DNA from: Streptomyces hygroscopicus | GTDB taxonomy: Bacteria; Actinomycetota; Actinomycetes; Streptomycetales; Streptomycetaceae | Direction of reading: 5' to 3' | Length of the DNA: 64,000 nt | Assembly: GCA_002021875.1 (NCBI GenBank) | Contig: CP018627.1 | Span: 9,300,001 to 9,364,000, forward strand | Shown: positions 1 through 63,631 of the stretch, piece after piece | Position numbering within the stretch: position 1 is the first letter of the stretch | Layout of the letters: each line of letters starts with the position of its first letter | The notes under the pieces: generated by a model | The model's database searches: none | What the model saw: only the letters and a program-made list of their open reading frames with translations | Told to the model about the DNA's origin: nothing | Made by a program: the position numbers and the translations under genes

Positions 1-2
1 AA

Positions 3-14538: not shown

Positions 14539-17500
14539 GTGCTTCCCGACTTGCTCACCCCGCTATCGGTCGTCCTCAGCCAGAACGCGCGCCGGTTCCC
14601 GGACAAGATCGCTTTCGAGGACGACCGGCGCGCGATCACCTACCGAGAACTCGAAGCACGGACCCGGAGACTCGCCGGTCACCTGGTCGGCCTCGGTGTC
14701 CGGCGCGGCGACCGGGTGGCTCTGTGTCTCGGCAACTCGGTCGCGATGGTGGAGAGCTACCTCGCCGTGGTACGGGCCGGCGGCATCGGCGTACCGATCA
14801 ACCCGCAGGCCGCCCCGGCGGAAATGAAATACCTCCTGGCCGACAGCGCAGCGACGCTCGCCCTCACCGGCACCGCGAATGCCGAGACATTTCTTCAGTC
14901 GATTCCCCGAGCGACACGCGAGGTGTCCGTCGTCGTGGCCGACGCCCTCGGCCCCGATGCCGGACACACCTTGCCCCCGGGCACCGTGGCGTACGAGGAA
15001 ATCGTCGCCACCGAGCCCGTCACCGAAGCCCCCGATGACCTCGGCCTGGACGAGGTGGCCTGGATGTTCTACACCTCGGGCACCACCGGCCGCCCCAAGG
15101 GCGTCCTGTCCACCCAGCGCAACTGCCTCTACTCCGTTGCCTCCTGCTACATTCCCGTGCCCGGACTCACCGAGCATGACCGCGTCCTGTGGCCACTGCC
15201 GCTCTTCCACAGCCTGTCGCACATCGCCTGCGTCCTGTCGGTCACCGTCTCCGGAGCCACCGCACGGATCATGGACGGCAGTTCGGCCGACGACATCCTG
15301 ACCGCTCTCCGCGAGAACCGTTCCACCTTGCTGGCAGGCGTCCCCACCACGTACCACCACTTGGTCGGCGTCGCCCGCCGCACCGGGCTGTCTCTGCCCG
15401 ACCTGAGGATCGGCCTTGTCGGGGGTGCCGTCACCGGCCCCGGACTGCGCCGTTCCTTCGAGGCGGCCTTCGGCGTCCCGCTCGTCGACGCCTACGGCAG
15501 CACCGAGACCTGCGGCGCCATCACCATCAACCCGCCCGACGGCCACGTGGTCGAGGGCTCCTGCGGCCTGCCCGTGCCCGGCGTCGGCGTCCGGATCGTC
15601 GATCCCCGCACCGGACAGGAGGTGCCCGCCGGGCAGGAGGGCGAGGTCTGGGTCAACGGGCCGAACGTCATGGTCGGTTACCACAACAACCCGCAAGCCA
15701 CCGCCGAGGTCCTGCAGGACGGCTGGTTCCACACCGGCGACCTGGCCCGGCGCGACGAAGCCGGCTACTTCACCATCTGCGGCCGTCTCAAGGATGTCAT
15801 CATCCGCGGCGGCGAGAACATCCACCCCGACGAGATCGAGGCCGCCCTGCGCGGGGCCGAGGGCGTGGCCGACGCCGCAGTCGCGGGCATGCCCCACGAC
15901 ACCCTCGGCGAGGTCCCCGTCGCCTGGGTGGTTCCCGGTCCGGACGGCGTCGACCTCACCCGGCTGCTCGACCACTGCCGCACCCAGCTCTCCCCGTACA
16001 AGCTCCCCGAACGCATCCATGAGGCCCGGACCATCCCCAGGACCGCCTCGGGGAAGGTCATCCGTCGACTCCTCACCGACCTGCCGGCCCGGCTGCGATA
16101 CGCCACCGACGGTCACTACGAGGGACTGATGCTGAGGGACTGGAGCAACGCGGCAGTCTCCTCCGACGAGCCGGAAGAGCTTCGCTGGGCGGTGGTGGGC
16201 CGCAGCGCCGACACCGATGGTCTGGCCGCCGCTCTTCGGAAGGCCGGCGTCGCCGACGTACGGCAATACCCTGACCTGTCAACGTCACGCACCACCCCTG
16301 ACGCGGCCACCGACGTGACTGTCCTCGCCGAGGCGGACGCGGACACGCTGACGCCGTCCCGTGCTGGATCGGCCGAGAAGACAAGCTCCCGGCTTGTCGT
16401 CCTCACCCGGGGCGCGACGGCTGTTACCGACCGGGACGGGACGCCAGCGCGCACCGAAGTCACGCTGTGGGCCGCCGCACGGGCCGCGCAGGCCGACGGA
16501 GGGTACGGCGCACCGCTGACAATCGTCGACGTCGAAGCCTCCACCCCGGAGTCCGTGTACGCCGGAGCGCTGATCGCCGCCGTCGCCTCGGGCCTGCCCC
16601 AGCTCGCCGTACGGGACGGGAACCTGCTGCGGCCCAGGCTGGTCCGCCTCCCCGTCGTGGACGGACCGGATTCCGCCACGCCGGCACTCGACGGCCCCGT
16701 GATCGTCACAGGCGCCGACACGAAGACAGGTGCCGCCCTCGCCCGCCATCTGGTCACCGCGTACGGAACACGCCACCTCGTGCTCGTCCAGGCAACCGAT
16801 ACCGTCGACGACCGGGGCCGGGCCGAGCTACCGGCGGACGGCGTGGAGATCGTCCGTGTCGTGGCCGACGGCTCGGATCCGCTGGAGCTCCGTGCGGCCC
16901 TGACCAGGACCGGTCCGGTGACCGCGGTCGTGCACACCGCTGACGACCCCGAACTCGCCCGAACACTGGACGACCTCACCGCCGCCGACGATCTCGCCGC
17001 GTTCGTGGTGGTGACCGACGCTGCCGCACTGTTGGGCGCACAGCCCGACAGTCTTGCCCCGACGGTGGTCACCGCCGCCCTCACCGAGGCGGTGGTCCGC
17101 GACCGCCGGCTGCGCGGACTACCCGGCTCGCTGCTGGCCCTCGGCCGGCCGGAGGAGGGCCCCGGCGCCTTCGACGCACTGATCGAGACCGGAACCCCGG
17201 CCCTGGTGGCACTTTGGCCGACCACCGTCAACCCGGGCGACCGAGTACAGACGCTCCTCGACACCCTGACCGGCCAGGAGCCTCGCGCCACAGCACAGGC
17301 CGACGAGACGATCACCGCCGCCCTACGCGCGCGCCTCGCAGACCTGCACGAGCGGGACCAGCTCGCCCTGCTCGGCGAGATGATCCGCCAGGAGATCGCC
17401 TCCGTCCACACCCGCACGAGCACCGAACTCACCGTGGCAGGCCGGTCCTTCCGCGATCTCGGCCTCGGCTCCCTCGCCGTCGTCGAGCTGCGCAACCGGC

Positions 17501-17600
17501 TGACCGGACGAACCGGGCTGCGCCTGCCCACCACCGTGACCTTCGACCACCCGACTCCCGAGGCTCTTGCCGGACACCTTCGGGCCAGGGTCCTGGGTCT
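14539..17600 (+). other. PKS A loading module: adenylation - vestigial KR-like - ACP
   Basis: The adenylation domain (to about 16110) has [58 protein letters not shown] and the terminal Lys loop [11 protein letters not shown]. It would activate AHBA as an adenylate and load the ACP, whose phosphopantetheine Ser is at 17470-17472 (LGLGSLAV). Between them, about 16180-17230, lies a KR-like region whose nucleotide loop reads [13 protein letters not shown] instead of the usual GGTGxLG. It has no Ser-Tyr-Asn catalytic set, so it is structural or vestigial. Confidence 0.88.
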
Positions 17601-20600
17601 GTACGACGTGGCCAGGGAGGCGACGTCGGACAAGGATCGGACGGGGGCCACCGCCCCTGCGGAGCCGATCGCGATCGTCGGTATGGCGTGCCGCCTTCCG
17701 GGCGGTGTGGCGAGCCCTCAGGACTTGTGGCGGCTGGTCAGCGAGGGCCGGGACGTCGTGTCCGGCTTCCCGGAGGACCGAGGCTGGGATCTGGGCAGTC
17801 TGTTCGACGCCGACCCGGAGAAGACCGGCACGTCGTATGCCGATCAGGGCGGATTTCTACGCGAGGCGGGCCTGTTCGATGCGGGCTTCTTCGGGATTTC
17901 GCCGCGTGAGGCGCTCGCCATGGATCCGCAGCAGCGGCTGTTGCTGGAGACCTCGTGGGAGGCGCTGGAGCGGGCCGGGATTGACCCAGGGACATTGAAA
18001 GGTCATGACGTCGGGGTCTTTTCAGGCCTCATGGCACAGGGGTACGGGCTGTCGGGTGCGGCTCCGGCGGAACTCGAGGGCTTCGGCGAGACGGGCACGG
18101 CGTCGAGCGTGGCATCCGGGCGTGTGTCGTACGTGTTCGGTTTCGAGGGCCCCGCGATCACGGTGGACACGGCCTGCTCGTCCTCGCTGGTAGCCATGCA
18201 CCTGGCGGCGCAGGCGTTGCGTCAGGGTGAGTGCTCGATGGCGTTGGCGGGTGGCGCGACAGTGATGGCGAACCCATCCACGTTCGTGGAGTTCTCCCGC
18301 CAACGCGCATTGTCCTCGGACGGCCGGTGCAAGTCGTACGCGGACGCCGCGGATGGCACGGGCTGGGCCGAGGGCGCCGGTGTCGTGGTCCTCGAGCGGC
18401 TGTCGGACGCGCGCCGCAACGGGCACCAGGTGCTTGCGGTGATCCGTGGCAGCGCGATCAGTCAGGACGGCGCGTCGAACGGTCTGACGGCGCCGAGTGG
18501 TCTTGCGCAGCAGCGGGTGATCCGTAAGGCGCTTGCCAGTGCGGGTTTGTCGGCGGCTGATGTGGATGTGGTGGAGGGGCATGGCACGGGCACGGTGCTC
18601 GGTGATCCCATCGAAGCGCAGGCGCTGCTGGCGACGTACGGCCAGGACCGGGAACCCGAGCGTCCATTGTGGCTCGGTTCGCTGAAGTCGAACGTGGGCC
18701 ATACTCAGGCCGCCGCCGGTGTGGCTGGTGTGATCAAGATGGTGGAGGCGTTGCGGCACGGCGTGATGCCGGCGACGCTGCATGCCGATACCCCGTCGTC
18801 ACAGGTGGACTGGTCGGTGGGTGCCGTCGAGGTGCTGACCGAGGCTCGCACCTGGCCGGAGACCGGCCGGCCGCGCCGCGCTGGTGTCTCGTCTTTCGGC
18901 CTCAGCGGGACGAATGCGCACCTGATTCTGGAGCATTCCCCGGAGCCTGCGTCTGAGCCGGTGGTGGACGCCGTTGATGGTGTGGTGCCCCTGGTGGTGT
19001 CGGCGGCTGCGGCCGCCTCGCTGACCGGCCAGGCGCAGCGGCTTGCGTCGTTCGTCGGTTCGGAAGGGGGTGTGGTGCTGCCGGAGGTTGCGGCGGCGTT
19101 GGTGTCGCGGCGTGCGGTGTTGTCCGAGCGTGCGGTGGTGGTGGCGGGTTCGCGTGATGAGGCGTTGTCGGGGCTGGGTGCGCTGGCTCGTGGTGAGGAC
19201 GTTCGTGGGGTGGTTGTTGGTGGTGGGTTGAGGTCGGGTGGGGACGGCAAGGTTGTGTTGGTGTTTCCGGGTCAGGGTTCGCCGTGGGTTGGTATGGGTC
19301 GTGAGTTGTTGGATTGTTCGGCGGTGTTTGCGGCGCGGGTGGGGGAGTGTGCGGTGGCGTTGGAGCGGTGGGTGGATTGGTCGTTGGTGGATGTGTTGCG
19401 GGGGGATTGTTCGGCGGAGTTTTTTGAGCGTGAGGATGTGCGGCAGCCGGCGAGTTTTGCGGTGATGGTGGGTTTGGCCGCGGTGTGGGAGTCGGTGGGT
19501 GTGGTGGCGGATGTGGTGGTGGGTCATTCGGGTGGTGAGGTTGCTGCCGCGTATGTGTCGGGTGCGTTGTCGTTGGAGGATGCGGTTCGGGTTGTGGCGG
19601 TGCGGAGTCAGATCATTTCCGGTGTTCTTTCGGGTCGGGGTGGTATGGCGTCGGTGGGGTTGTCGGAGGAGGAGGTGGTTGCTCGTCTGCAGGAGTGGGA
19701 TGGTCGGGTTGAGATCGGGGCGGTCAACAGTCCGTCCTCGGTGGTGATTTCTGGTGACGCCGAAGCCCTTGGTCAAGCCCTCGACGCCCTTGCGGCGGAC
19801 GGCGTCAGCGCGCGCCGGGTCGCGATCGACTACGCCTCCCACACGAAGCACGTCGAAGCGATCGAAGACGCACTGGCAGCCGCGTTCGCCGACATCCGTG
19901 CCCAGGCGCCGCTGATTCCCTTCTACTCGACCGTGACCGGTGAGTGGGTGCGGGAGGCGGGTGTCCTGGACGGCGGTTACTGGTATCGGAACCTGCGCAG
20001 TCAGGTCCGCTTCGGCCCCGCGATCGCTGACCTGCTGGCCGACGGCCACACCGTCTTCGTGGAGTCCAGCGCGCACCCCGTCCTGGTCCAGCCGATCAAC
20101 GAGATCGTCGACCAGGCCGGCACCGGCGCCGTGGTGAGTGGATCGCTACGTCGTGACGAGGGCACCTCGCGCCGGCTGCTGACCTCGATGGCGGAACTCT
20201 TCGTCCGAGGCGTTCCCGTCGACTGGACCGGTGTCCTCCCGGCCGGTGCCGTCGCCGCCCGGGCCGACCTCCCCACCTACGCCTTCGACCACCAGCACTA
20301 CTGGCTCCGCCCTGCTCCCGCCGTCGACGCCGTCGCGCTCGGACAAGCCGCCGGCGACCACCCGCTCATCGGGGCGATCGTCGGCCGACCGGACTCCGGC
20401 GGCCTCATGACCACCTCGCGGTGGTCGGCGGCCACCCACCCCTGGCTCGGCGATCACACCGTCGGTGATGTCGTGGTCGTACCGAGCGCGGCGCTGGTCG
20501 AGCTGGCCATCCGGCTCGGTGACGAAGTCGGCAGCCCCGTGATCGAGGAGCTGACCGTGGACCGGCCCATCCTGCTGCCGCTGCGCGGCGGCGGCCGAGC

Positions 20601-23600
20601 AGTACAGATGACCGTCGGAAAGGCCGACGAGCAGGGGCGGCGACCGGTCGAGGCATACTCCCGCCCGGACGACGCGAGCCCGGACGCGGTGTGGACACGC
20701 CACGCCCACGGCACATTGATGCCCGGACCGGTGACCCCACCGGCTTCCAGCAGCAGGTGGCCCACCACCAGTCCCACAACCGACGTCGCCCTCCATGAGG
20801 CAATCGGCGACGCCGACCGCTACGGCCTGCACCCGGCGCTGCTCGACGCGGCGATCTGCACGACCCTGCCCCCAGACATGATCGCAACCCGGTGGAGCGG
20901 GGTGACCTTGCTGGCCTCCGGCGCCGCGGCGGTACGGGTCCGCGCAGCCCGTGACGCCGCTGGAGTGACCCGCCTCGAGCTGGTGGATGCCACCGACGCG
21001 CCGGTGCTGATCGCTGATGCCGTCGTCGCCGAGCCGTTTTCGCCCGAGAAGGCGGACGCGTCGGCGCCCGGCGCCCTGTTCCAGGTCGATTGGGTCGAAC
21101 TCCTCCCGCCCCCGGGGGAAACGACTGAGGAAGCCGTCACCACGGCGACCATCGCCGACGCCGAAGACCTCGCTGACCTCACAGCCGTACCAGACCTTCT
21201 GATGTACGAGGCCGGGCACTCGCCCGCCGACCCGCGCGAGGCCGTCGCCGCCGCGTTGGCCGTTCTCCAGACATGGCTGGCAGCACCGGCCCTGGCGCAC
21301 ACCCGCCTCGTCGTGATGATCCCCGGGGCTGAGGACGATCTCACCGCGGCCGCCGTGTCCGGCCTGCTGCGTTCGGCACAGTCGGAGCACCCCGACCGCA
21401 TCGTCCTTGTCGACCGCGAGAATGCCGAACACCACGACAGCGCAGCGACCGTGAAGGCCGTGCGACTCGCGTCGGTCACGGGCGAGCCCCAAATCCGTGT
21501 GCGAGATGGCGTGACCCTCGTACCTCGGCTCAAACGCGCCCCACTCACCGAAAATCCCCGGCGCGAGTTCACCCCTGACGGCACCGTCCTCGTCACCGGC
21601 GGCACGGGGACGCTCGGCAGTCTCGTAGCCCGGCACCTGGCTACCGAACACGGCGTACGGCACCTGCTGCTGACCAGCCGGAGCGGACCGAACGCCGAAG
21701 GGGCGGCGGCGCTGTACGAGGAACTGACAAACCTCGGCACGACCGTCACCATCGCCGCGTGCGACACCGCCGACCGAGACGCTGTCGCCGCGCTCCTCGC
21801 CGCCGTACCGGACGCACACCCGCTCACCGCCGTCGTCCATACCGCCGGAGTCCTCGACGACGCCGTGGTCACCACCCTGACCCCGGCCCGTCTCGACACA
21901 GTCCTGCGGCCGAAACTTGACGCCGCACTGCACCTGCACGACCTGACCCGACACATCGACCTCGCGGCGTTCGTCCTCTTCTCCTCCGCCGCCGGCGTCC
22001 TCGGCAACCCCGGCCAGGGCAACTACGCCGCCGCGAACGCCTCCCTGGACGCCCTCGCCCTGCACCGCCGCCGCTCCGGCCTGCCCGGCATCTCCCTCGC
22101 CTGGGGTTACTGGAACGCGGCCACCGCCATGACCCGGCACCTCGGCGCCGCAGACCTGCACCGCACCCGGAGCCTCGGCATGGCCGGGCTCTCCACCGCC
22201 GAGGGCATGGCGCTGCTCGACATGGCCCTGCGGGCGGGCGAGGAGACTCCCGCGGCTCTTGTGGCAACTCGGTTCGACCTTCCCGCCCTGCGGGCATCCA
22301 CCCGCGCCGGAACTCCCGTGGCACCGCTCCTGCGCGGCCTCGCACCCGTTCCTCGGCCGGCCGCCACGTCCTCGCATACGGCCGTAACCGGCTCCCTGCG
22401 TCAGCGGCTCGACCGCCTGGGCGCCAGGGAGCGCACAGAGGCGCTGGTGGAACTGGTCCGGCAGAACGCCGCCCAGGTGCTCGGCCACTCCGGCGCTGAC
22501 GACATCCGCGTCGACCGCGCCTTCAAGGACGCCGGCTTCGACTCGCTGACCGCCATCGAGCTGCGCAACCGGCTCGCGGCCGCGACGACTCTCACCCTGC
22601 CCTCCACCATCGTCTTCGATCACCCGAAGCCGCTGCTGCTCGCCGACCACCTGCGCGTACAGCTCTTCGGCGACGACGAACAACGACATGAGAACGACCA
22701 GCACGGCGACGGCACCGTGGCTACCCTCTCCGACGACCCGATCGCCATCGTCGCGATGGCCTGCCGCTTCCCCGGCGGTGTGGAAAGCCCCGAAGACCTG
22801 TGGCGCCTGGTCACCGAAGACACCGCGGTCATCGGCGAGTTCCCCGACGACCGCGGCTGGGACATCGATTCGCACTACGACGCTGATCCTGACCGAATCG
22901 GCAAGACCTACGTACGGCACGGCGCGTTCCTGGACGACGCAACCGGATTCGACGCCGCCTTCTTCGGGATCTCACCGAACGAGGCGCTCGCGATGGACCC
23001 CCAGCAGCGGCTGTTCCTGGAAACCTCCTGGGAGGCGTTCGAACGCGCCGCGATCGACCCGACCGGACCCGGCAGTAAGGACGTCGGCGTCTTCGTCGGC
23101 GTCAACAGCCACGACTACACCGTTCGGACGCACCACGCGCCCGGCGTCGAGGGCTTCCGCCTCACCGGCAACTCCGGCAGCGTCATCTCCGGCCGGATCG
23201 CCTACCAGTTCGGCTTCGAAGGCCCGGCTATCACGATCGACACAGCCTGCTCGTCCTCGCTCGTCGCCCTCCACCTGGCGGCCCGCGCACTCCAGCAGGG
23301 CGAGTGCTCCATGGCCCTCGCCGGCGGCGTGATGGTCATGGGCAATCTGGAGACCTTCGTCGAGTTCTCCCGGCAGCGCGGCCTCTCGCCGGACGGCCGC
23401 TGCAAGGCCTTCGCCGACGCGGCGGATGGAACCGGCTGGTCCGAGGGCGTCGGCGTGCTCCTCGTCGAACGACTCTCCGACGCACGCCGCCGAGGTCACC
23501 AGGTCCTCGCGGTGGTCAAAGGCACCGCAGTCAACCAGGACGGCGCGTCCAACGGACTCACAGCGCCCAACGGCCTCTCACAGCAGCGAGTGATCCGCAA

Positions 23601-37500: not shown

Positions 37501-38085
37501 GTCCTGGCCCTGCTGCGTGCTCTGGTACAAACCGGGCGGCGGCAGGCACAAGCCGGGGAGAACGGCAGCGGACTTACCGCGAGGTTGGTCAGTCTCACAC
37601 CACAGGAGCAAGAGAAGCTGCTGCTCGACCTGGTCCTGACCCAGGTAGCCACCGTTCTCGGCTATACCGAGATAACCAATGTCGAAGCCCACAAAGCATT
37701 CGTGGACGCTGGCTTCGACTCCCTCACCTCGGTCGAACTGCGCAACCGCCTGCGCGAAGCCACCGGCCTCAAACTCGCCGCGACAGTCGTCTTCGACTAC
37801 CCCACCCCACTCGCCCTCGCCCGCCACCTGCACGACGGCCTCAAGCCCGCACAGTCCCCCGCCGGAACGCATCCGCTGTTGGCCGAACTGAGCAAGCTGG
37901 AAGCCAGGCTGGTCGAGACACCTGTCGACGACTCGATCCGCGCCCAGGTGGCTACCCGGCTCCAGGTCCTCCTGACCACCTGGTCGACGGCGAACGGAAC
38001 CCCGCCGGGCGACGAGGCGCTCGACTTCGACGCCGCCTCCGACGACGACCTCTTCGACCTCATTGACACGACGTTCAGCAACTAG
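31588..38085 (+). CDS. Type I PKS B: extension module 4 (KS-AT-DH-ER-KR-ACP)
   Basis: This is a single-module synthase of 2,165 residues with a full reductive loop. The N-terminal docking helix ([24 protein letters not shown]) matches the tail of PKS A. The KS (Cys 32206-32208) is unusual: DTMCSSTL instead of DTACSSSL and [12 protein letters not shown] instead of [12 protein letters not shown]. The AT has GHSGG and YASH. The DH has [17 protein letters not shown] and DAALQ, all intact. The ER has [11 protein letters not shown]. The KR has GGTGSLG, LDD and GQGNYGAAN. The ACP Ser is at 37720-37722. Predicted outcome: a saturated unit. The C-terminal acidic tail (DDDLFDLID) is a docking region for PKS C. 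Start ATG 31588 follows GGAGG at 31574-31578. Confidence 0.96.
33214..33776 (+). repeat. AT repeat, module 4 copy
   Basis: This is the module 4 copy of the 563-bp AT block. On both sides the sequence changes abruptly to C-rich codon use (before 33214 and after 33776), which marks the conversion edges. Confidence 0.92.
34381..37840 (+). repeat. DH-ER-KR-ACP duplication, module 4 copy (pairs with about 40921-44388)
   Basis: The DH, ER, KR and ACP of module 4 are very similar at DNA and protein level to those of module 5, with long stretches that differ only at scattered bases, for example around the ER near 36121 and 42671. Edges are approximate. Confidence 0.8.
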
Positions 38086-38144
38086 CCCGCGGCAGGCAAC
38101 GCTGCCACACCCCGATACCACTGCCTTCCAGGAGCTGAACTTTG

Positions 38145-44100: not shown

Positions 44101-44639
44101 CGCAGGCCGGGGAGAACGGCGGTGGACTTGCCGCGAGGCTCGCCGGTCTCACACCGCAGGAGCAGGAAGCACTGCTGCTCGACCTGGTCCGGGCACAGGT
44201 GGCGATCGTCCTCGGCCACACCGCAGTAGCGAACGTCGAAGCGGACAAAGCGTTCAAGGACGCTGGCTTCGACTCCCTCACCTCGGTCGAGCTGCGCAAC
44301 CGCCTGCGCGAAGCCACCGGCCTCAAGCTGGCGGCGACAGTCGTCTTCGACTACCCCACCCCACTCGCCCTCGCCCGCCACCTGCACGACGAGGCCGACA
44401 TCACCGACGACGCCCAATCACTGGTGAATTCCAAGATTGACGACATCGAATCACTGATCACCGGATCGCTCTCCAACGATGCCAAGAAGGCCGGAGTCAT
44501 ACTCCGTCTCCAGAGGCTGGTGACGAAGCTCAACGGACTCGGCGATCAGAAGACGGACTCTGCAGTGGCAGAGCAACTGGAATCCGCCTCCGCTGATGAG
44601 GTCCTTGACTTCATCAACGAAGAGCTCGGACTCTCCTGA
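38145..44639 (+). CDS. Type I PKS C: extension module 5 (KS-AT-DH-ER-KR-ACP)
   Basis: This single-module synthase of 2,164 residues is very close to PKS B from the AT to the ACP. The N-terminal docking helix is [20 protein letters not shown]. The KS has DTACSSSL. The AT carries GHSGG and, at the specificity site, FASH instead of YASH. The DH has [10 protein letters not shown] (Asp at the usual Gly), YGPAFQG and DAALH. The ER ([11 protein letters not shown]) and KR ([19 protein letters not shown]) look active. The ACP Ser is at 44274-44276. Predicted outcome: a saturated unit if the DH tolerates Asp. A long C-terminal docking tail ends the protein. ATG 38145 is preferred to TTG 38142; AGGAG lies at 38130-38134. 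Confidence 0.96.
38250..38662 (+). repeat. KS N-terminal repeat, module 5 copy (pairs with 44788-45200)
   Basis: These 413 bp match the start of the module 6 KS at offset 6,538 with only about four or five base differences. The match begins right after the docking helix and ends at the point where the two KS domains diverge (LGGYLAT versus LGGLVGT). Confidence 0.85.
39846..40399 (+). repeat. AT repeat, module 5 copy
   Basis: This is the module 5 copy, identical to module 1 over 554 bp. Identity with module 1 resumes for another 182 bp at 40464-40645 (19882-20063 in module 1). The short gap between contains the specificity motif (FASH here, YASH in module 1). Confidence 0.92.
40921..44388 (+). 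repeat. DH-ER-KR-ACP duplication, module 5 copy
   Basis: This is the partner of 34381-37840. The two proteins diverge again in their C-terminal docking tails. Confidence 0.8.
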
Positions 44640-44691
44640 GAAATCACGCCTTCACTGATTGCCGCTCCCCAGCCCAGCTAAGGAATCGAAG

Positions 44692-50148: not shown

Positions 50149-50177
50149 TGGACGCACGCCGGAACAGGGAGATAGCA

Positions 50178-55466: not shown

Positions 55467-55548
55467 CCGGAACCTTCGCGCATAGGTGCGGAGCTGGACC
55501 AGAGTCAATGCAAACGTTGTTTCCTTCCCGGATGAAGTGGAGTTCGGC

Positions 55549-56319
55549 GTGTTCGTCAAAAAAGATTATCTGCAGCGCATAGGTTACGAAGGATCCGGCA
55601 TTCCGAACCTTCACACCCTGGCGGAACTTCAGTGGCTGCATCTCTGCAGTCTCCCCTACGACACCGGATACATTCTGCATCAGCCGTACGAGGATTTTGA
55701 CATGCCCCGCGTATTCGAAGCGGTGATGAAACGGGGCGGAGTCTGTTTCGAGTTGAATTTCCTCTTCCATCGTCTCCTTGTCGAGATGGGATTCGATGCG
55801 CACGTGAATTCCGCCAGCACGGCTCTCCCTGGCGGCCAGTGGGGTTCCGAGATCGAGCACATGGCTATCCGCGTCCGTATAGACGACGTGGATTGGCTCG
55901 TCGACGTCGGGCACGGAAGCGTGGCCATCACGGAGCCCCTGCGTATCGATGAACAGGGGGGAAGCGTGGTTCAGATGGGCACGGAGTTCCGCTTGGCCAC
56001 GCGGGGCGAGTGGCGCGTCCTTCAATACAAGCCAAAGGGCAGGGATTGGCGTGACGCATATCGGATGAAAATCAAAGATCGTGCCATTTCCGATTGGAAT
56101 ACGTGGCGAGAAGAACTGCCGCCCGACGCGGACCCTGTGGTGCCGCGGAAGCGGCGACGCGGTGTGGAGAACGGGCAGGTGACCCTCGTCGCCAATCTCT
56201 TCAGGTCCATCATCGGGGGCGAGGAGACGGTGAAGCACGTACGTGATGAAGCAGAGCTGATCGAGATCATGACTACTTACTGGGGAGAGTCCGCACCTAT
56301 CGTCGGGTACGAACGATGA
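55549..56319 (+). CDS. rifF: Amide synthase (RifF type, arylamine N-acetyltransferase fold)
   Basis: This enzyme releases the finished chain from the last ACP and closes the macrolactam on the AHBA amino group, replacing a thioesterase. The arylamine N-acetyltransferase catalytic triad is visible: Cys in KRGGVCFELNF, His in EIEHMAIRV, Asp in WLVDVGHG. GTG 55549 (GGAG at 55539-55542) gives about 256 residues, beginning VFVKKDYLQRIGY, which fits the usual start and length of the family; the longer frame from 55486 would add 21 unrelated residues. It lies immediately after the last PKS gene and before the AHBA genes, as in the rifamycin cluster. Base composition is lower in GC than its neighbours. 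Confidence 0.94.
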   Translation: MFVKKDYLQRIGYEGSGIPNLHTLAELQWLHLCSLPYDTGYILHQPYEDFDMPRVFEAVMKRGGVCFELNFLFHRLLVEMGFDAHVNSASTALPGGQWGSEIEHMAIRVRIDDVDWLVDVGHGSVAITEPLRIDEQGGSVVQMGTEFRLATRGEWRVLQYKPKGRDWRDAYRMKIKDRAISDWNTWREELPPDADPVVPRKRRRGVENGQVTLVANLFRSIIGGEETVKHVRDEAELIEIMTTYWGESAPIVGYER

Positions 56320-56360: not shown

Positions 56361-57449
56361 ATGAGAGAGCGAGACGGCGTGAGAGGCCAGATCCCGGTGA
56401 GCATCGGCGACCGTTCGTACGATGTGCTGGTCGGCCGGGGGGTGCGTTCCTCGCTGGCCGAAGTGATCCAGGGCCTCGGCGCCCGGCGGGTCGCCGTCGT
56501 GTCAGCCCGGCCCGCGCAATGGGTGCCCGACACCGGCGTGGAGACCCTGCTGCTGCCCGCCCGCGACGGTGAGCGGGACAAGACCCTCGCCACCGTCGAG
56601 GCACTGTGCGCGGAGTTCGTACGCTTCGGCCTCACCCGCAACGACGCGGTCGTCTCCTGCGGGGGTGGAACCACCACCGATGTCGTCGGCCTGGCCGCCG
56701 CCCTGTACCACCGGGGCGTGCCAGTGGTGCATCTGCCGACCACGTTGCTGGCGCAGGTCGACGCGAGCGTCGGCGGTAAGACGGCGGTCAACCTGCCCTC
56801 CGGTAAGAACCTGGTGGGCGCCTATTGGCAGCCTGCCGCCGTATTGTGCGACACCGAGTACCTGTCCACCCTGCCCCGGCGCGAGATGCTCAACGGCTTG
56901 GGCGAGATCGCCCGCTGCCATTTCATCGGCGCCGGCGACCTGCGCGAGCTCGGCCTCACGGAGCGAATCGCGGCCAGTGTGACGCTCAAGGCCGACGTCG
57001 TCTCGGCCGATGAGCGCGACACCGGTCTGCGGCACATCCTCAACTACGGCCACACCCTGGGCCACGCGCTGGAATCCGCCAGCGGCTTTGCGCTTCGGCA
57101 CGGCGAGGCCGTCGCTGTCGGCACGATTTTCGCGGGCCTGCTCGCCGGCGCTCTGGACCGGATCGGCCCCGGGCGGGTGGCGGAGCACCGGGAGGTCGTC
57201 GAGTTCTACGGCCTGCCGGCCGCGCTGCCCGAGGAGATCGAGACAGCTGAGCTGATCCGCCTGATGCGCAGGGACAAGAAGGCGCTCACCGGCCTCGCGT
57301 TCGTCCTCGACGGCCCCAGCGGCGTGGAGCTGGTCCACGACGTATCCGAACAAGTCGTCGCCGATGTCCTGGAGTCCATGCCACGGCAGCCACTCGGCCG
57401 ACTCGTCGAGCCGGCACACTTCCACGGAACAGGAGATCCGCTGGCATGA
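56361..57449 (+). CDS. rifG: Aminodehydroquinate synthase
   Basis: This enzyme cyclises aminoDAHP to aminodehydroquinate in the aminoshikimate route to AHBA. It is a 362-residue dehydroquinate synthase-like enzyme. Motifs are the NAD-binding GGGTTTDVVGLAAALYHRG, then PTTLLAQVDASVGGKTAVN, PSGKNLVGAYWQP, and the metal-binding HILNYGHTLGHALE and FALRHGEAVAVG. The GEIARCHFIG segment differs from primary-metabolism enzymes, as in the secondary-metabolism branch. Its stop overlaps the next start by four bases (ATGA). Confidence 0.95.
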   Translation: MRERDGVRGQIPVSIGDRSYDVLVGRGVRSSLAEVIQGLGARRVAVVSARPAQWVPDTGVETLLLPARDGERDKTLATVEALCAEFVRFGLTRNDAVVSCGGGTTTDVVGLAAALYHRGVPVVHLPTTLLAQVDASVGGKTAVNLPSGKNLVGAYWQPAAVLCDTEYLSTLPRREMLNGLGEIARCHFIGAGDLRELGLTERIAASVTLKADVVSADERDTGLRHILNYGHTLGHALESASGFALRHGEAVAVGTIFAGLLAGALDRIGPGRVAEHREVVEFYGLPAALPEEIETAELIRLMRRDKKALTGLAFVLDGPSGVELVHDVSEQVVADVLESMPRQPLGRLVEPAHFHGTGDPLA

Positions 57450-58720
57450 CGCGCTCATCAGAGGCAGCGCACGGCGAGGCCCGGGTCTGGGCCACGCGGG
57501 AGCCAGGACTCGCGGACCGCCTCGCCGCGGCCCTGGACAGACGTGCGGCGCAGCAGCCTGAGTGGCCGGACCCCGCCCTGGCCCGGATGGTGATGGACCG
57601 GCTGCGCGACGCACCCCCGATCGTGGCCGAGTCCGAGACTGCACAGCTCTCCGAGAAATTTGCGGCGGTCACCCGCGGCGAGGCATTCCTGCTGCAGAGC
57701 GGGGACTGCGCGGAGACCTTCGCCGAGACCACCGAACCGCACCTGCGGGCCAACCTCAGCCTCCTGAAGCGCATGGCCCTGATCCTGACCCACGCCGCTG
57801 AGCTGCCGGTGATTCCCCTCGCCCGCATGGCCGGCCAGTACGCGAAGCCACGCTCCCAGCCCGCCGATGCGGACGGCCTACCGGTCTACCGAGGTGACAT
57901 GGTCAACTCCGCCGCACGCATCCTTGCCGCCCGCACTCCCGACCCCGAGCGGATGCTGCTCGCCCACAAACATGCGGCTCGCGCGATGGCGCTCGCCCGC
58001 CGGGCCGGACAGATCTATGTGAGCCACGAGATGCTCCTGCTCGACTACGAATGCGCCCCACTCCACATCGCCAGGTTCACCACCGGTCCGGAGCCTCTGC
58101 TCGCCAGCCCACTCGCCCACTTCCTGTGGATCGGTGAGCGCACGCGAGGCCTCGACGACGCGCACCTCGCCGTCGCCGAACTACTCGCCAACCCCATCGG
58201 GGTGAAGATCGGGCCCGGCACCACCCCGGAACAAGCCGTCGAGTACGTCCGCAGGCTCGACCCCCACGGCACGCCCGGGCGGCTGACGCTGATCAGCAGA
58301 ATGGGCCACGCCCTGGTCCGCGAGGTGCTGCCGCCGATAGTGGAGAAGGTCACCGCCACCGGCCACCAGGTGGTCTGGCAGTGCGACCCGATGCACGGCA
58401 ACTCCCGCACGACCGCAGGCGGTCGAAAAACCCGCCACTTCGACGACATCGTCGCGGAGATCAGCGGCTTCTTCGACGTCCACCGCACCCTCGGCACTCA
58501 CCCCGGCGGCATCCACCTGGAGGCGACCGGCGAGGACGTCACCGAGTGCCTGGGCGGGGCCCGCGGCCTGGGTGAGGACGACCTTTCGGCCCGCTTCCGT
58601 ACCGCCTGCGACCCCCGCCTGAACGAGGAGCAGGCCATCGAGCTCGCCTACACCGTCGCCGATCTGCTCGCTGCTGCTGTCCGGCCGGTCACCGACACAG
58701 GCTCTCGGAACCCGAGATGA
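57446..58720 (+). CDS. rifH: AminoDAHP synthase (class II DAHP synthase-like)
   Basis: This enzyme condenses phosphoenolpyruvate with iminoerythrose 4-phosphate to aminoDAHP, the first step of the aminoshikimate pathway. It has 424 residues and is of class II (plant-like) type: LLQSGDCAETF near residue 85, KPRSQP, SHEMLLLDYE, GVKIGPGTTPEQ, CDPMHGNSR with TRHFDDI, and THPGGIHLEATGEDVTECLGG. It overlaps both neighbours by four bases, so translation is coupled within G-H-I. The ordinary aromatic amino acid DAHP synthase is ruled out by context, not by sequence alone. Confidence 0.94.
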   Translation: MTRSSEAAHGEARVWATREPGLADRLAAALDRRAAQQPEWPDPALARMVMDRLRDAPPIVAESETAQLSEKFAAVTRGEAFLLQSGDCAETFAETTEPHLRANLSLLKRMALILTHAAELPVIPLARMAGQYAKPRSQPADADGLPVYRGDMVNSAARILAARTPDPERMLLAHKHAARAMALARRAGQIYVSHEMLLLDYECAPLHIARFTTGPEPLLASPLAHFLWIGERTRGLDDAHLAVAELLANPIGVKIGPGTTPEQAVEYVRRLDPHGTPGRLTLISRMGHALVREVLPPIVEKVTATGHQVVWQCDPMHGNSRTTAGGRKTRHFDDIVAEISGFFDVHRTLGTHPGGIHLEATGEDVTECLGGARGLGEDDLSARFRTACDPRLNEEQAIELAYTVADLLAAAVRPVTDTGSRNPR

Positions 58721-59550
58721 CCGCCACCGCCCCGTCGCCACAGCCCTCGATCAGCGGCACCACCCGCTTGTACGCCGTCGTCGGCGATCCGGTTGCACAG
58801 GTCCAGTCTCCCGGCCTGCTCAATCCGCTCTTCGCCGACCAGGGACTCGACGCGGTGCTGGTGCCGGTGGAGGTTCGCCCTGACGATCTGGAACAGGTCA
58901 TCCGCGGCCTGCAGCGCATCGGCAACCTCGACGGCATCTTCGTCACCGTCCCCCACAAGGCGGACGCCGCCCGACTCGCCGACCGGCACAGCCGCACTGT
59001 CGAGATCGCCGGAACGTCCAACGTGCTGCGCCGCGAGACCGACGGCAGGTGGTTCGCCGAGAACTTCGACGGTGCCGGTTTCGTGGCCGGCCTCGCCCGT
59101 GCCGGGCACGAGATTCGCGGCAGCCGGGTCGCGCTCGCCGGGGCCGGCGGAGCGGGCAGCGCCATCGCGGCGGCGCTGCTGACGGCCGGCGCGACCCGGA
59201 TCGCCGTGACCGACCCGGACCGGCCCAAACTGGACGCACTCGTCGGCCGGCTCGCCAGGTACTGGCCCGGCCGGGTACACGCCGTTGCCGAACCGGCCCT
59301 GAAGGACAGCGACCTCGCGGTCAACGCGACTCCGCTCGGGCTGCGATCCAGCGACCCGCTGCCGTTCCCGCCCGAAGCGCTCGCCCCCGGAGCGGCCGTG
59401 GCCGACATCATCATGAAACCCCACGAGACGCCTCTGCTGCGGCAGGCCGCCGCCCTTGGCCACCACGTCCACCACGGCATTGACATGCTGAAAGGGCAAG
59501 TGGAGTTCTACTGCGAGTTCTTCGGTCTGCGCGCACCCGGGACCGGCTGA
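58717..59550 (+). CDS. rifI: Aminoquinate/shikimate dehydrogenase-like protein
   Basis: This 277-residue oxidoreductase has the shikimate dehydrogenase fold: substrate region VGDPVAQVQSPGLLNP, catalytic Lys in VTVPHK, NENF-like region FAENFDGAGFV, and nucleotide loop LAGAGGAGSAIAAALL. In the rifamycin cluster the equivalent gene lies at the same place. It was found dispensable for AHBA formation there, possibly recycling or shunting aminoquinate. ATG 58717 overlaps the rifH stop by four bases. About 190 bp without a gene follow. Confidence 0.92.
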   Translation: MTATAPSPQPSISGTTRLYAVVGDPVAQVQSPGLLNPLFADQGLDAVLVPVEVRPDDLEQVIRGLQRIGNLDGIFVTVPHKADAARLADRHSRTVEIAGTSNVLRRETDGRWFAENFDGAGFVAGLARAGHEIRGSRVALAGAGGAGSAIAAALLTAGATRIAVTDPDRPKLDALVGRLARYWPGRVHAVAEPALKDSDLAVNATPLGLRSSDPLPFPPEALAPGAAVADIIMKPHETPLLRQAAALGHHVHHGIDMLKGQVEFYCEFFGLRAPGTG

Positions 59551-59741
59551 CGCCCGCACCGGCCACACTCGCACGTCCAGCCGGCCCACATCCGGGCGGA
59601 CGGCTACCAAGCCGAGGGATGCGGGGCGGTAAGAGCGGTGCCTACCGTGAACGTCGCACATCCGGCCACGTGCCCCGCCCCGCGCTATGCCGTCCGTCGG
59701 CCATCGGCCGAGAAATGTTCGAAATGAAGATTTGGAGACGC

Positions 59742-60902
59742 ATGAACGCGCGACCGACACCAGAGTTCCCCACCTGGCCGCAGTACGACGACGGCGAGCG
59801 CACCGGCCTGATCCGGGCCCTGGAGCAGGGCCAGTGGTGGCGCATGGGAGGGTCGGAGGTGGACTCCTTCGAGAGTGAGTTCGCGGACTTCCACGGCGCC
59901 CCACACGCTTTGGCCGTCACCAACGGCACCCACGCCCTGGAGTTGGCGTTGCAGTGTCTGGGCGTCGGGCCGGGCACCGAGGTCATCGTGCCGGCCTTCA
60001 CCTTCATCTCCTCCTCCCAGGCCGCTCAGCGGCTGGGAGCGGTTGCCGTCCCCGTCGACGTCGATCTCGATACCTACAACATCGACGTGGCTGCCGCGGC
60101 TTCCGCCGTCACCCCCCTCACCAAGGTGATCATGCCTGTGCACATGGCGGGGCTCATCGCCGACATGGACGCGCTCGGCGAACTCTCCGCTGACACCGGT
60201 GTGCCTCTTCTCCAGGACGCCGCCCACGCACACGGTGCCCGCTGGCAGGGCAAACGGGTGGGCGAGTTGGGTACGGTCGCCTCGTTCAGCTTCCAGAACG
60301 GCAAGCTGATGACCGCCGGCGAGGGCGGTGCGCTGCTCCTGCCCGACGAGGAGACCTACGAGGCCGCGTTCCTGCGGCACAGTTGTGGCCGGCCACGTAC
60401 CGACCGCCGATACATGCACCAGACCGCCGGCACCAACATGCGGCTCAACGAGTTCTCCGCGGCCGTGCTCCGCGCCCAGCTGGGCCGCCTCGACGCCCAG
60501 ATCACGCTCCGCGATCAGCGCTGGACGCTGCTGTCCCGGCTGCTCGGTGAGATCGACGGCGTCGTACCCCAGGGCAGCGACCCGCGCGCCGACCGGAACT
60601 CTCACTACATGGCGATGTTCCGGATCCCCGGCATATCCGAGGAGGCCCGCAACGCCCTCGTCGACACGCTCGTCGAGGCCGGCCTGCCCGCCTTCGCCGC
60701 CTTCCGGGCGATCTACCGCACCAACGCGTTCTGGGAGACAGCCGCGCCCGACACCACCGTCGACAAGCTCGCCGAAAGCTGCCCGCACACCGAGGCGATC
60801 AGCACCGACTGCATCTGGCTGCACCATCGAGCGCTGCTCGCCTCAGAGGAAGCCCTCTATGCCACAGCCGAGATCATCGCCGACGCCTTGGCCGCACGGT
60901 GA
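59742..60902 (+). CDS. rifK: AHBA synthase / UDP-3-keto-glucose aminotransferase
   Basis: This is a PLP enzyme with two roles in AHBA biosynthesis: aromatising aminodehydroshikimate to AHBA, and, with RifL, transaminating UDP-3-keto-glucose towards UDP-kanosamine. It has 386 residues; the PLP lysine is Lys188 (FSFQNGKLMTAGEGG). Family landmarks are EQGQWWRMGG, PAFTFISSSQAAQRLGA, PVHMAGL, QDAAHAHGARW and ADRNSHYMAMFRIPG. ATG 59742 matches the family start (MNARPTPEFPTWPQYDD) and follows GGAG at 59734-59737; the frame from 59619 is an extension. This gene is the standard marker of ansamycin clusters. Confidence 0.97.
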   Translation: MNARPTPEFPTWPQYDDGERTGLIRALEQGQWWRMGGSEVDSFESEFADFHGAPHALAVTNGTHALELALQCLGVGPGTEVIVPAFTFISSSQAAQRLGAVAVPVDVDLDTYNIDVAAAASAVTPLTKVIMPVHMAGLIADMDALGELSADTGVPLLQDAAHAHGARWQGKRVGELGTVASFSFQNGKLMTAGEGGALLLPDEETYEAAFLRHSCGRPRTDRRYMHQTAGTNMRLNEFSAAVLRAQLGRLDAQITLRDQRWTLLSRLLGEIDGVVPQGSDPRADRNSHYMAMFRIPGISEEARNALVDTLVEAGLPAFAAFRAIYRTNAFWETAAPDTTVDKLAESCPHTEAISTDCIWLHHRALLASEEALYATAEIIADALAAR

Positions 60903-61999
60903 GGGTCCGGGCTGCCGTCGTCGGGCTCGGCTGGGCGGGCCGCGACCTATGGCTCAGGCTGCTGCGCGAGCACAAGGACTTCGAGGTGGTCGCCGGCGTC
61001 GACCCCGACCCCGGCTCCCGGGCGGCGGCTGTGGCCACCGGGCTGCGCGCCCACTCCACCGTGGACGCCCTCGATCCCCGCACGATCGACATCGCCGTCG
61101 TCGCGGTACCCAACCATCTGCACGCTGAGGTCGCGGCCGCCCTGCTCCGTCGAGGGATCTCCGTCTTCCTGGAGAAGCCGGTCTGCCTCACCGCTGCCGA
61201 GGCCGACGCCCTCGCCGCGGCCGAACGCAACGGCGCGGTGCTGCTCGCCGGCAGTGCCGCCGCCCACCGCGGCGACATCCGCGAGCTCTCCGGGCTGCTT
61301 CCCCAGCTCGGCCGGATCCGCCATGCCGACCTGACCTGGGTCAGGGCGCGCGGAGTGCCGCAGCCCGGCGGCTGGTTCACCCAGCGCAGCAGGGCCGGTG
61401 GCGGTGCGCTCGTCGACCTCGGCTGGCACCTTCTCGACGTCCTCGCCTTCCTCCTCGGCCCCGCCCCCGTCGCCCAGGTGATCGGCTCGATCTCCGACGA
61501 CTTCGTCAGCAGCAGAGCCTGGTCCGCCACATGGCGTGAGGACCGGCTCACCGACGCCCCGACCGGCGACGTCGAGGACACCGCCCGCGGTTTCCTGGTC
61601 CGCGAGGACGGTATCTCTGTCTCGTTGCGGGCCAGCTGGGCCTCACACGAGGCGCTGGACGGCTCCGTCATCACCATCGAGGGCAGCGATGGAACGGCAC
61701 GGCTGCACTGCACCTTCGGCTTCAGCCCGAACCGGGCTCCCGAATCGGTGCTCACCCTCACGCAGGACGGCTCCACACAGCGGATCCCGCTGCCCGCCGA
61801 ACCCATCGGCATTGAGTACGGTCGCCAGCTCGACGGCCTCACCCGGCTCCTGGCCGACCCGGGCCGACGAGGCCAGGCCGTCGCCCAGGCCCGCAGCACC
61901 GTCCGGTTGATCGAAAGCTTCTATGCATCGGCGCGCGCTGCCCCACCCGTGGATCGCGCGTCCGAATTCACCGCCCACAAAGAGGTGAGGATCGCATGA
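60899..61999 (+). CDS. rifL: UDP-glucose 3-dehydrogenase-like oxidoreductase
   Basis: This 366-residue Gfo/Idh/MocA-family dehydrogenase is thought to oxidise UDP-glucose at C3 so RifK can install the amino group of kanosamine. The NAD loop VVGLGWAGRDLW is at the N-terminus, followed by the family motif FLEKPVCLTAAEA and the catalytic region VDLGWHLLDVL. GTG 60899 overlaps the rifK stop by four bases, which fits the functional pairing. Confidence 0.93.
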   Translation: MRVRAAVVGLGWAGRDLWLRLLREHKDFEVVAGVDPDPGSRAAAVATGLRAHSTVDALDPRTIDIAVVAVPNHLHAEVAAALLRRGISVFLEKPVCLTAAEADALAAAERNGAVLLAGSAAAHRGDIRELSGLLPQLGRIRHADLTWVRARGVPQPGGWFTQRSRAGGGALVDLGWHLLDVLAFLLGPAPVAQVIGSISDDFVSSRAWSATWREDRLTDAPTGDVEDTARGFLVREDGISVSLRASWASHEALDGSVITIEGSDGTARLHCTFGFSPNRAPESVLTLTQDGSTQRIPLPAEPIGIEYGRQLDGLTRLLADPGRRGQAVAQARSTVRLIESFYASARAAPPVDRASEFTAHKEVRIA

Positions 62000-62694
62000 C
62001 CAGAGGGCCGGAATTCCATGCGGCACCGACCATCGAACAGCGCCCCCCGGTCCCCAGACACGCTGTCATCTTCGATCTCGACGGGGTCGTCGTCGACAGC
62101 TTCGAGGTGATGGGTGAGGCGTTCTCCCTGGCGTACGCCGAGGTCGTCGGCACCGGCGAGGCACCTTTCGAGGAGTACCGGCGCCACCAGGGCCGCTACT
62201 TTCCCGACATCATGCGGATCATGGGCCTTCCGCTGGAGATGGAAGAGCCCTTCGTCCGCGAGAGCTACCGGCTCGCCGACCGCGTCCAGGTGTACGACGG
62301 TGTCGTCGACGTCCTGCGGACGCTGAACGAACGCGGCCTCCGGCTGGCCATCGCCACCGGCAAGGCAGGCGAGCGCGCCCGGTCCCTGCTCGATGTCCTC
62401 GGCCTGCTCCCGTACTTCGCCCACGTCATCGGCTCCGACGAGGTGCCCCGGCCCAAGCCCGCCCCTGACATCATCAGACGCGCACTCGAACTCCTCGAGG
62501 TTCCGGCGGAGCGGGCCATCATGATCGGCGACGCCCCCACCGACCTGGCCAGCGCTCACAGCGCCGACGTCACCGCCGTAGCCGCGCTGTGGGGTTGCCA
62601 GGCAGGGGCCGAATTGCTCGCCGCCGACCCCGATGTCGTCCTGCGGTGGCCCGTCGACCTGCTCGCCCTCTGCCCGGCTCTGCCCGGCCACTGA
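61996..62694 (+). CDS. rifM: HAD-family phosphatase of AHBA (kanosamine) supply
   Basis: This 232-residue haloacid dehalogenase-type hydrolase has the motifs VIFDLDGVVVDSF (nucleophile Asp), IATGKAGERA, RPKPAPDI and MIGDAPTDLASA. It is assigned a role in releasing kanosamine or its phosphate from the UDP-sugar route. The exact reaction is less certain than the fold. ATG 61996 overlaps the rifL stop by four bases. Confidence 0.92.
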   Translation: MTRGPEFHAAPTIEQRPPVPRHAVIFDLDGVVVDSFEVMGEAFSLAYAEVVGTGEAPFEEYRRHQGRYFPDIMRIMGLPLEMEEPFVRESYRLADRVQVYDGVVDVLRTLNERGLRLAIATGKAGERARSLLDVLGLLPYFAHVIGSDEVPRPKPAPDIIRRALELLEVPAERAIMIGDAPTDLASAHSADVTAVAALWGCQAGAELLAADPDVVLRWPVDLLALCPALPGH

Positions 62695-62701
62695 ACCGCC
62701 A

Positions 62702-63631
62702 GTGGCAGCCGCACCGCCGTCCTGGCACCTCGGCATCGACATAGGGGGCACCAAGGTCGCCCTGCGCGCCGAGTCGGCAGACGGACGCATCGAGGAGCAC
62801 ACGTTCCTCTGGCCGAACGACCAGGACGGACCGGACCGAGACCTGGCCCTGCTGTCAGAGGGCGTCGCCACCCTGGCGGCCCGGACGGGTGACGGTTTCC
62901 AGGCCGCAGGGGTCGCCGTCCCCGCCACGGTGGGCCCGGACGAGCAGGTCGTCTCCTGGCCCAGCCGACCGTCCTGGACCGGCCTCGCCCTCGGTCCCGT
63001 ACTGCGTGTCCTCGTACCCGGAGCGGCCATCGCCTGGGCGGACGACGGCGATGTGGCCGCCCTCGCCGAGGCCGAGGCGGCCGACTGCGCCGACCTGCTC
63101 TACATCGGCGTCGGAACCGGCATCGGCGGCGGCCTGCTCCTGGGCGGCCGCCTCTGCCCCGGCCCGGGTCGGGGCTCCTTCGAACTGGGCCATCTGGTCG
63201 TCGCGTCGGGCGGTCCGGTGTGCGTCTGCGGCCGTCAGGGCTGCCTCCAGGCGATCGCCTCGGGCCCGGCCACTCTGGCCCGGGCCCGCGAACTGCACGG
63301 CGCGCCGGTCACCTACGAAGAGCTGCGCGAAGCCCTCCGTACCGCCCGCCCATGGGCTATGGCCGCGATCGACGGCACCTGCCAGGCCCTGGCCACCGCC
63401 ATCATGGGGGTCACCGAACTGCTGCACCCCGGCCTCGCTGTGATCGGAGGCGGATTCACGGCAGGCATCGACAACCTGGTCGAGCGCGTAGCCACCCACC
63501 TGACACCCATGTCGCGCTCAGGCTGCCCCGCCCCGCCCGTCGCCGCGGCGCGGCTGGGCGGCCTTTCGTCGCTCCGAGGCGCGGTCCTGCTTGCCCGAGC
63601 CGTCACAGCCGGAGCCGTACCGCTTCTGTAG
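62702..63631 (+). CDS. rifN: Kanosamine kinase (ROK family)
   Basis: This enzyme phosphorylates kanosamine at C6, the last step before the aminoshikimate pathway proper. It has 309 residues with the ATP loop GIDIGGTKVALR, the second phosphate loop IGVGTGIGGGLLLGG, and the ROK zinc-binding signature: His in ELGHLVV followed by CVCGRQGCLQ. GTG 62702 is preferred to 62633, which would place 23 unrelated residues in front and overlap rifM by 62 bases. No strong ribosome site is seen, so it probably relies on coupling to rifM seven bases upstream. Confidence 0.93.
   Translation: MAAAPPSWHLGIDIGGTKVALRAESADGRIEEHTFLWPNDQDGPDRDLALLSEGVATLAARTGDGFQAAGVAVPATVGPDEQVVSWPSRPSWTGLALGPVLRVLVPGAAIAWADDGDVAALAEAEAADCADLLYIGVGTGIGGGLLLGGRLCPGPGRGSFELGHLVVASGGPVCVCGRQGCLQAIASGPATLARARELHGAPVTYEELREALRTARPWAMAAIDGTCQALATAIMGVTELLHPGLAVIGGGFTAGIDNLVERVATHLTPMSRSGCPAPPVAAARLGGLSSLRGAVLLARAVTAGAVPLL

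Follow-up and report, generated by a model that had tools for sequence, protein, structure and literature searches.

Neoansamycins are described as naphthalenic octaketides of Streptomyces sp. LZ35 built with n-pentyl- or n-butylmalonyl-CoA (PMC5869933); the acyltransferase (AT) of NamE accepts both butyl- and pentylmalonyl-CoA (PMC6273641), the hydroxylase Nam7 forms the naphthalenic ring (PMC13000494), and the strain also has a hygrocin cluster (PMC11213898). We analyzed a window of 64,000 nucleotides (positions 9300001–9364000) of the 12.01-Mb single-contig genome of Streptomyces hygroscopicus, in which a modular polyketide synthase (PKS) stands between genes for extender-unit supply and genes for 3-amino-5-hydroxybenzoic acid (AHBA). 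We consider it likely that this window holds most of a naphthalenic octaketide ansamycin cluster of the neoansamycin (nam) type. Its product is very probably the neoansamycins or close variants of them, and the product scaffold is probably not a new one. The cluster is thereby placed beside the neoansamycins, with extender assignments that are open to testing.

Read directly from the DNA were the genes present, their domains, the motifs and relationships of the ATs, and the residues of the crotonyl-CoA carboxylase/reductases (CCRs); substrates, chemistry and product were inferred from them. Five PKS genes, PKS A (14416–31539) and PKS B to E (one module each; frames as in Table 1), are followed directly by genes matching in content the rifamycin order F-G-H-I-K-L-M-N, and are preceded by a CCR gene and a methoxymalonyl-acyl carrier protein (ACP) set complete in five genes (3-hydroxyacyl-CoA dehydrogenase, ACP, acyl-CoA dehydrogenase, FkbH and O-methyltransferase). 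This arrangement had been noticed in an earlier sequence-only reading and was borne out, as was its count of seven extension modules, mostly one per protein (by Pfam domains, three in PKS A and one in each of B to E). The co-occurrence of the five PKS frames, the F-to-N genes and the upstream extender genes is well above chance. The same reading had bounded the cluster at 14539 and 63631. The first position is in frame with PKS A and possibly marks a later start, but the longest frame begins at 14416. The second is too short: the cluster extends about 9 kb beyond the window, to about window position 72,871 (positions 1–8871 of the right-hand flank, L001), with genes for an acyl-CoA ligase, an FAD hydroxylase, a type II thioesterase, a type II dehydroquinase, a second CCR (CCR2), a fatty-acyl-AMP ligase (FAAL) and a ketoacyl synthase III (KSIII). 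The genes beyond these look catabolic or regulatory, as judged by eye from their translations.

The likeness to the nam system is drawn from the printed descriptions. By these, the nam cluster is, and that of the window would be, a naphthalenic octaketide system with a long-alkyl extender, a special AT on the fifth (E) protein (NamE in LZ35) and a Nam7 hydroxylase; activation of the neoansamycins is described as acting through transcription regulation, and the window cluster has a LuxR gene. In the window, seven extension modules correspond to an octaketide. AHBA synthase- and aminoshikimate-type genes accompany an AMP-binding loading module, which points to priming by AHBA. A RifF-type NAT gene is present, and PKS E showed no thioesterase domain among matches at E≤1e-5. 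Module 2 had no ketoreductase (KR) match in the Pfam domain scan and the module 3 KR lacks its catalytic Tyr, giving the unreduced steps of a naphthalenic line, and they are accompanied by a hydroxylase of the Rif-Orf19/Nam7 type, one relative of which (P0035, 72% identity) carries the name Rif-Orf19. The predicted long-alkylmalonyl AT on the E protein is recognized by sequence only, from the GAAH motif of PKS E together with the CinF-like CCR2, FAAL and KSIII. The sequence-only reading had suggested that the product may be new; that suggestion is weakened by the number of modules, the hydroxylase of Nam7 type, the genes for a long-alkyl extender and the AT of the fifth protein, all of which match the printed neoansamycin descriptions.

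The rifamycin cluster has in common with the window an AHBA starter, the F-G-H-I-K-L-M-N order, NAT release and a Rif-Orf19-type hydroxylase; there these genes are named rifF, G, H, I, K, L, M and N. To our knowledge it differs in having ten modules, no long-alkyl extender and no methoxymalonyl set. The "amino-" roles given to the G, H, I and K genes come from their place and neighbors and not from a specific model.

The two CCRs should differ in their products. The best solved structures for CCR1, upstream of the PKS, were crotonyl-CoA reductases (723 bits for 3HZZ), whereas CCR2 scored 944 bits against the octenoyl-CoA reductase/carboxylase 4A0S and at most 484 against crotonyl enzymes. We aligned eight CCRs at two pocket positions of the CinF structure, which we take to be residues 163 and 362 of 4A0S by counting along the alignment. 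CCR1 and five others have Ile and Phe there; the pair is Ala and Gly in CCR2, and Ala and Val in the CCR of a related cluster in another Streptomyces genome (G229). From pocket residues and structure scores, the expected product is therefore ethylmalonyl-CoA for CCR1 and a longer alkylmalonyl-CoA for CCR2. The module 7 AT forms one clade (100/100) with the module 7 ATs of two cousin clusters. Of the two special extender pathways claimed in the sequence-only reading, CCR-based supply is upheld, with two such routes present, but use of methoxymalonyl-ACP is unsupported, as discussed below.

In the biosynthesis we propose, AHBA would be made by the G-to-N genes and the dehydroquinase beyond the window and loaded on PKS A. 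The chain would then be extended with methylmalonyl, malonyl, methyl- or ethylmalonyl (module 3), methylmalonyl (modules 4 to 6) and butyl- or pentylmalonyl units (module 7), the last presumably supplied by the FAAL, KSIII and CinF-like CCR2; the best candidate consumer of ethylmalonyl-CoA from CCR1 would be module 3. The NAT would close the macrolactam, and the Nam7/Rif-Orf19-type hydroxylase would trigger closure of the naphthalene ring.

Neoansamycin A is given as C30H37NO7 in one table of a secondary paper (PMC9740855). We enumerated 16 product variants (module 3 methyl or ethyl, module 5 methyl or methoxy, butyl or pentyl, hydroquinone or quinone), assuming AHBA, one malonyl and one alkyl unit, post-PKS hydroxylation and oxidation, and inactive module 3 and 6 KRs and module 6 dehydratase (DH). 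Exactly one variant equals C30H37NO7: methyl at modules 3 and 5, butyl, quinone; no variant with a methoxy unit does so. This agreement is consistency, not proof, and the printed formula is second-hand. Some results cut the other way. The formula requires methylmalonyl at module 3, ethyl giving C31 or C32, and a looser enumeration, in which the module 6 KR was treated as active, fits C30H37NO7 in 12 of 576 cases, six of them with a methoxy unit. A hygrocin-type NAT was not found in the window genome (NAT search at E≤1e-5), and therefore the genome is that of another strain than LZ35. No relative bearing a nam name appeared among the NAT relatives or among the best 120 listed for the hydroxylase and FkbH.

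Two cousin clusters resemble that of the window. Streptomyces pseudovenezuelae GGS1 (taken to be genome G011) has PKS E at 83% identity, a PKS D whose KR carries the change seen in the window, AHBA genes at 79–90%, the NAT at 76%, and fragments of the loading module and of modules 1–4, 6 and 7 at 75–85%, in a broken assembly in which modules are not countable. It differs in its module 7 AT, which reads CAGH where the window reads GAAH, and in its two CCRs (E≤1e-60), both crotonyl-type, one of them beside a dehydroquinase fragment. The G229 cluster has the loading module at 84%, PKS E at 81%, AHBA genes at 74–91%, a Nam7-like gene at 84%, a CCR2-like gene at 64% and a distant KSIII at 36%. It has eight modules, a YASH motif in the module 3 AT, a NAT of only 46–48% identity, and neither a methoxymalonyl set nor CCR1 in the 100 kb examined. 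PKS A of G229 (G229:C1:7547832-7565262, L030) lies in two overlapping frames of 2000 and 3941 amino acids; the split is a frameshift or sequencing error.

The AT of module 3 looks to have been exchanged relative to G229. Within module 3, identity to G229 is 92% for the ketosynthase (KS), 90% for the KR and 91% for the ACP, but only 63% for the AT, whereas the ATs of modules 1, 2, 4, 5 and 7 are 80, 88, 79, 75 and 81% identical to their counterparts. Module 6 has diverged more broadly (AT 58%, KS 80%, KR 69%). A maximum-likelihood tree built from 58 ATs placed the module 3 AT (100/99) with one AT each from two further genomes, G055 and G096. Both have a Nam7-like gene (52–55%) and a NAT (37–38%); a luciferase-like monooxygenase adjoins the NAT in G096, and G055 has a similar reading frame. 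We infer that their clusters are hygrocin/divergolide-like. Hygrolansamycin A, a hygrocin C congener, is reported to carry an ethyl branch (PMC9668088). Because the AT groups with hygrocin-like ATs and because of this ethyl branch, a fair reading is that module 3 takes ethylmalonyl fed by CCR1; methylmalonyl is possible. Two observations speak against ethylmalonyl. The module 3 AT is 60–61% identical to the hygrocin-like VASH ATs and 60–63% to the methylmalonyl-type ATs of G229, so that only the tree joins it to the former; and no CCR match appeared in the 80 kb examined of G055 and of G096. The motif of the S. pseudovenezuelae module 3 AT falls in an assembly gap, and its last 77 residues are 84% identical to the window and 78% to G229. 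The module 3 AT would represent a natural exchange of the kind sought by PKS engineers. We also considered methoxymalonyl at module 3, given that this AT is an outlier, but did not prefer it: the AT reads RAR, the CoA type, and groups with the VASH ATs of the two hygrocin-like clusters.

Which AT, if any, uses the methoxymalonyl-ACP set was examined by motif. ATs that take CoA-bound units are described by the motif RXR(X)5YASH and those that take methoxymalonyl-ACP by MXW(X)5YASH, in which other hydrophobic residues can also occur (PMC4207774). Alignment found the latter signature in none of the seven window ATs and in 3 of 20 ATs from three other stretches of the same genome (filter: GHSxG plus upstream FxGQG, no stop; this may miss ATs); these were two YRW...DFAGH ATs at 10.04–10.12 Mb and one MRW...DFAAH AT at 11.1 Mb, close to a fragment of FkbH. 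Because no window AT bears a matching signature, the set looks orphan and is probably unused by the window PKS. Such a cassette allows one to ask if the presence of supply genes beside a PKS foretells their use. Arguing for caution, two ATs are visible in the 60 kb examined at an FkbH set at 4.01 Mb and neither bears the signature, so a missing signature alone is no proof of disuse; moreover, the module 5 AT deviates from consensus (GHSGG, SAR, FASH).

The set may be patchily distributed. FkbH was found in only one of three genomes searched, the window's own (E≤1e-30), S. pseudovenezuelae GGS1 and G229 giving no match. No methoxymalonyl genes were matched in the 1.6 kb upstream of the S. pseudovenezuelae loading module or in the 3.5 kb between the LuxR gene and the loading module of G229. 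The block of CCR1 and methoxymalonyl genes thus looks like either an addition in the window lineage or a loss in both cousins. A 98% relative of FkbH occurs in Streptomyces antimycoticus, in a protein cluster of 6 members; at 98%, the NAT cluster has 28 members, labelled MULTISPECIES [Streptomyces], and two hydroxylase clusters have 38 and 1. These cluster sizes at most hint that the set is patchy among nam-type clusters.

One alternative to which we give a modest chance is that the product is a new methoxylated neoansamycin variant, in which point changes switched one AT, most likely that of module 5, from a methylmalonyl-CoA substrate to methoxymalonyl-ACP supplied by the adjacent set. The complete set lies directly upstream of PKS A and was unmatched at the equivalent place in two cousins, and half of the looser formula fits include a methoxy unit. 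The module 5 AT has SAR and FASH where module 4 has RVR and YASH, and its Phe recurs in the three signature ATs (FAGH, FAGH and FAAH). However, two of the three changes, SAR and GHSGG, recur in module 1, whose AT reads YASH and is 90% identical to that of module 5, and are thus not peculiar to the latter. The hydrophobic-x-Trp signature is absent from all seven ATs, and the strict enumeration gives no methoxy variant of the printed formula. An unlikely but bolder extension is that three non-standard extender routes feed one line: ethylmalonyl-CoA (CCR1, exchanged AT of module 3), long-alkylmalonyl-CoA (CCR2, FAAL, KSIII, module 7) and methoxymalonyl-ACP (module 5, its AT altered by point changes). 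If true, the line would yield a methoxylated naphthalenic ansamycin with ethyl and butyl/pentyl branches and would display a natural change of AT specificity. We know of no such compound.

It is quite improbable that the scaffold is unrelated to the neoansamycins, as the sequence-only reading's suggestion of a new product would imply: the exact set of methoxymalonyl genes, two CCRs, seven modules and Nam7-type hydroxylase was indeed unseen in five other clusters (G011, G229, G055, G096 and G340), but the core features agree with the printed neoansamycin description, and the 28-member, MULTISPECIES NAT cluster indicates that this kind of cluster is not unique to the strain. A silent, decaying cluster without product, suggested by its degenerate DHs and KRs and by insertion-sequence-like fragments to its left (seen by eye only), is highly improbable, as all five PKS frames are open and the KR losses of modules 3 and 6 are each found in a cousin.

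The nam-type cluster we favor shows further detail in its reductive domains. The Tyr loss of the module 3 KR is common to G229, and the module 6 KR change to S. pseudovenezuelae GGS1, although Tyr is retained in the corresponding module 6 domain of G229; because each loss recurs in a cousin cluster, both look programmed. The module 6 DH lacks the HxxxGxxxxP motif. In module 5, Asp replaces the motif Gly, which makes DH activity there less sure. Modules 4 and 5 (31588–44639) have nearly the same enoylreductase (ER, 95% identity), KR (91%) and DH (89%), whereas their KS domains are 67% identical; this, with the similarity of the module 1 and 5 ATs, is a sign of gene conversion among modules.

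Table 1. Features of the cluster, in window positions; the last two continue into or lie in the right-hand flank.
Feature	Position	Strand	Basis or remark
LuxR-family regulator (GerE C-terminal domain), 449 aa, cluster-situated	7256..8605	+	domain match
CCR1, crotonyl-CoA carboxylase/reductase, predicted ethylmalonyl-CoA type	8654..10063	+	TIGR01751 574.5 bits; pocket Ile + Phe
3-Hydroxyacyl-CoA dehydrogenase, methoxymalonyl-ACP set	10195..11055	+	62–63% copies in FkbH sets at 4.0 and 10.05 Mb
ACP, methoxymalonyl-ACP set	11052..11321	+	sequence, PP-binding
Acyl-CoA dehydrogenase, methoxymalonyl-ACP set	11314..12429	+	role from place in set
FkbH, methoxymalonyl-ACP set	12426..13487	+	TIGR01686 367 bits
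O-Methyltransferase, methoxymalonyl-ACP set	13544..14212	-	PF01596 221 bits; 59% copies in 4.0 and 10.05 Mb FkbH sets
PKS A, putative AHBA loading module: AMP-binding and ACP, separated by a weak KR-like stretch	14416..17640	+	Pfam
PKS A module 1: KS-AT(GHSGG/YASH)-truncated DH-KR(catalytic Tyr present)-ACP	17641..22710	+	
PKS A module 2: KS-AT(GHSVG/HAFH, malonyl type)-DH remnant-ACP	22711..26670	+	no KR match
PKS A module 3: KS-AT(GHSQG/VASH, apparently exchanged relative to G229)-KR without catalytic Tyr-ACP	26671..31539	+	
PKS B module 4: KS-AT(GHSGG/YASH)-DH-ER-KR-ACP	31588..38085	+	
PKS C module 5: KS-AT(GHSGG/FASH)-DH-ER-KR-ACP	38142..44639	+	
PKS D module 6: KS-AT(GHSQG/YASH)-degenerate DH-KR with Leu for Tyr-ACP	44659..50148	+	
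PKS E module 7: KS-AT(GHSLG/GAAH, putatively long-alkylmalonyl)-DH-KR-ACP	50148..55466	+	
NAT/RifF-type amide synthase, putative macrolactam release	55486..56319	+	
AroB-like, aminodehydroquinate synthase, RifG-like	56361..57449	+	by place
Class II DAHP synthase-like, aminoDAHP synthase, RifH-like	57446..58720	+	by place
AroE-like dehydrogenase, RifI-like	58717..59550	+	by place
PLP aminotransferase (LegC-type), AHBA synthase (RifK-like)	59619..60902	+	by neighbors
Oxidoreductase, RifL-like	60899..61999	+	by place
AHBA-associated HAD phosphatase, RifM-like	61996..62694	+	TIGR01454 348 bits
Sugar kinase, ROK kind, RifN-like	62633..63631	+	
Acyl-CoA ligase start region, continuing to L001:1408 (window position 65408)	63591..64000	+	start codon unsure
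FAD hydroxylase, Rif-Orf19/Nam7 kind	L001:1525-3222 = window 65525-67222	-	relatives

The distribution of the cluster was surveyed in genus samples of 392, 365 and 342 genomes, which seem to overlap heavily. Matches at E≤1e-55 or better came only from the window's own genome, S. pseudovenezuelae GGS1, G229 and G340, and a search of 199 relatives returned the first two only. A NAT search of genome contigs found S. pseudovenezuelae GGS1 and a distant locus in Streptomyces sp. SBT349; viral contigs gave no match and plasmids two NATs at 32–34%. G340 (G340:C1:7277001-7357000, L069-L072) holds an AHBA/Nam7-like cluster with the unusual AT motif QTRELTLANGVAGH, a weak KSIII match and no CCR match in that stretch. 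Upstream of PKS A, G229 has a LuxR-like gene 33% identical to the cluster LuxR. A second LuxR-family gene in the window (2409–3683, minus strand) is also 33% identical to the cluster LuxR; it has a low third-position GC of 0.61 and is perhaps foreign or decaying.

The genome contains three AHBA-synthase-like genes (E≤1e-20) and two NAT-like genes (E≤1e-5), counting those of the window. A geldanamycin-like cluster at 10.04–10.12 Mb (G000:C1:10040001-10120000, L036-L039) has three PKS frames and a carbamoyltransferase gene. It resembles the window cluster in its seven ATs, NAT, methoxymalonyl set and aminodehydroquinate synthase-like gene, but differs in its AT order, P-Mx-P-P-Mx-A-P with MXW-type ATs, and in the carbamoyltransferase; from its family, we take it to be benzenic. 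The other AHBA-synthase-like genes, at G000:C1:1222394-1223542 (72%, L005) and 2936347-2937486 (54%, L006), are not near a NAT match, and the former may, as a guess, serve the geldanamycin-like cluster from afar. The methoxymalonyl-ACP set at 4.01 Mb discussed above, beside the PKS whose two visible ATs lack the signature, lies at G000:C1:4004000-4016000 (L034).

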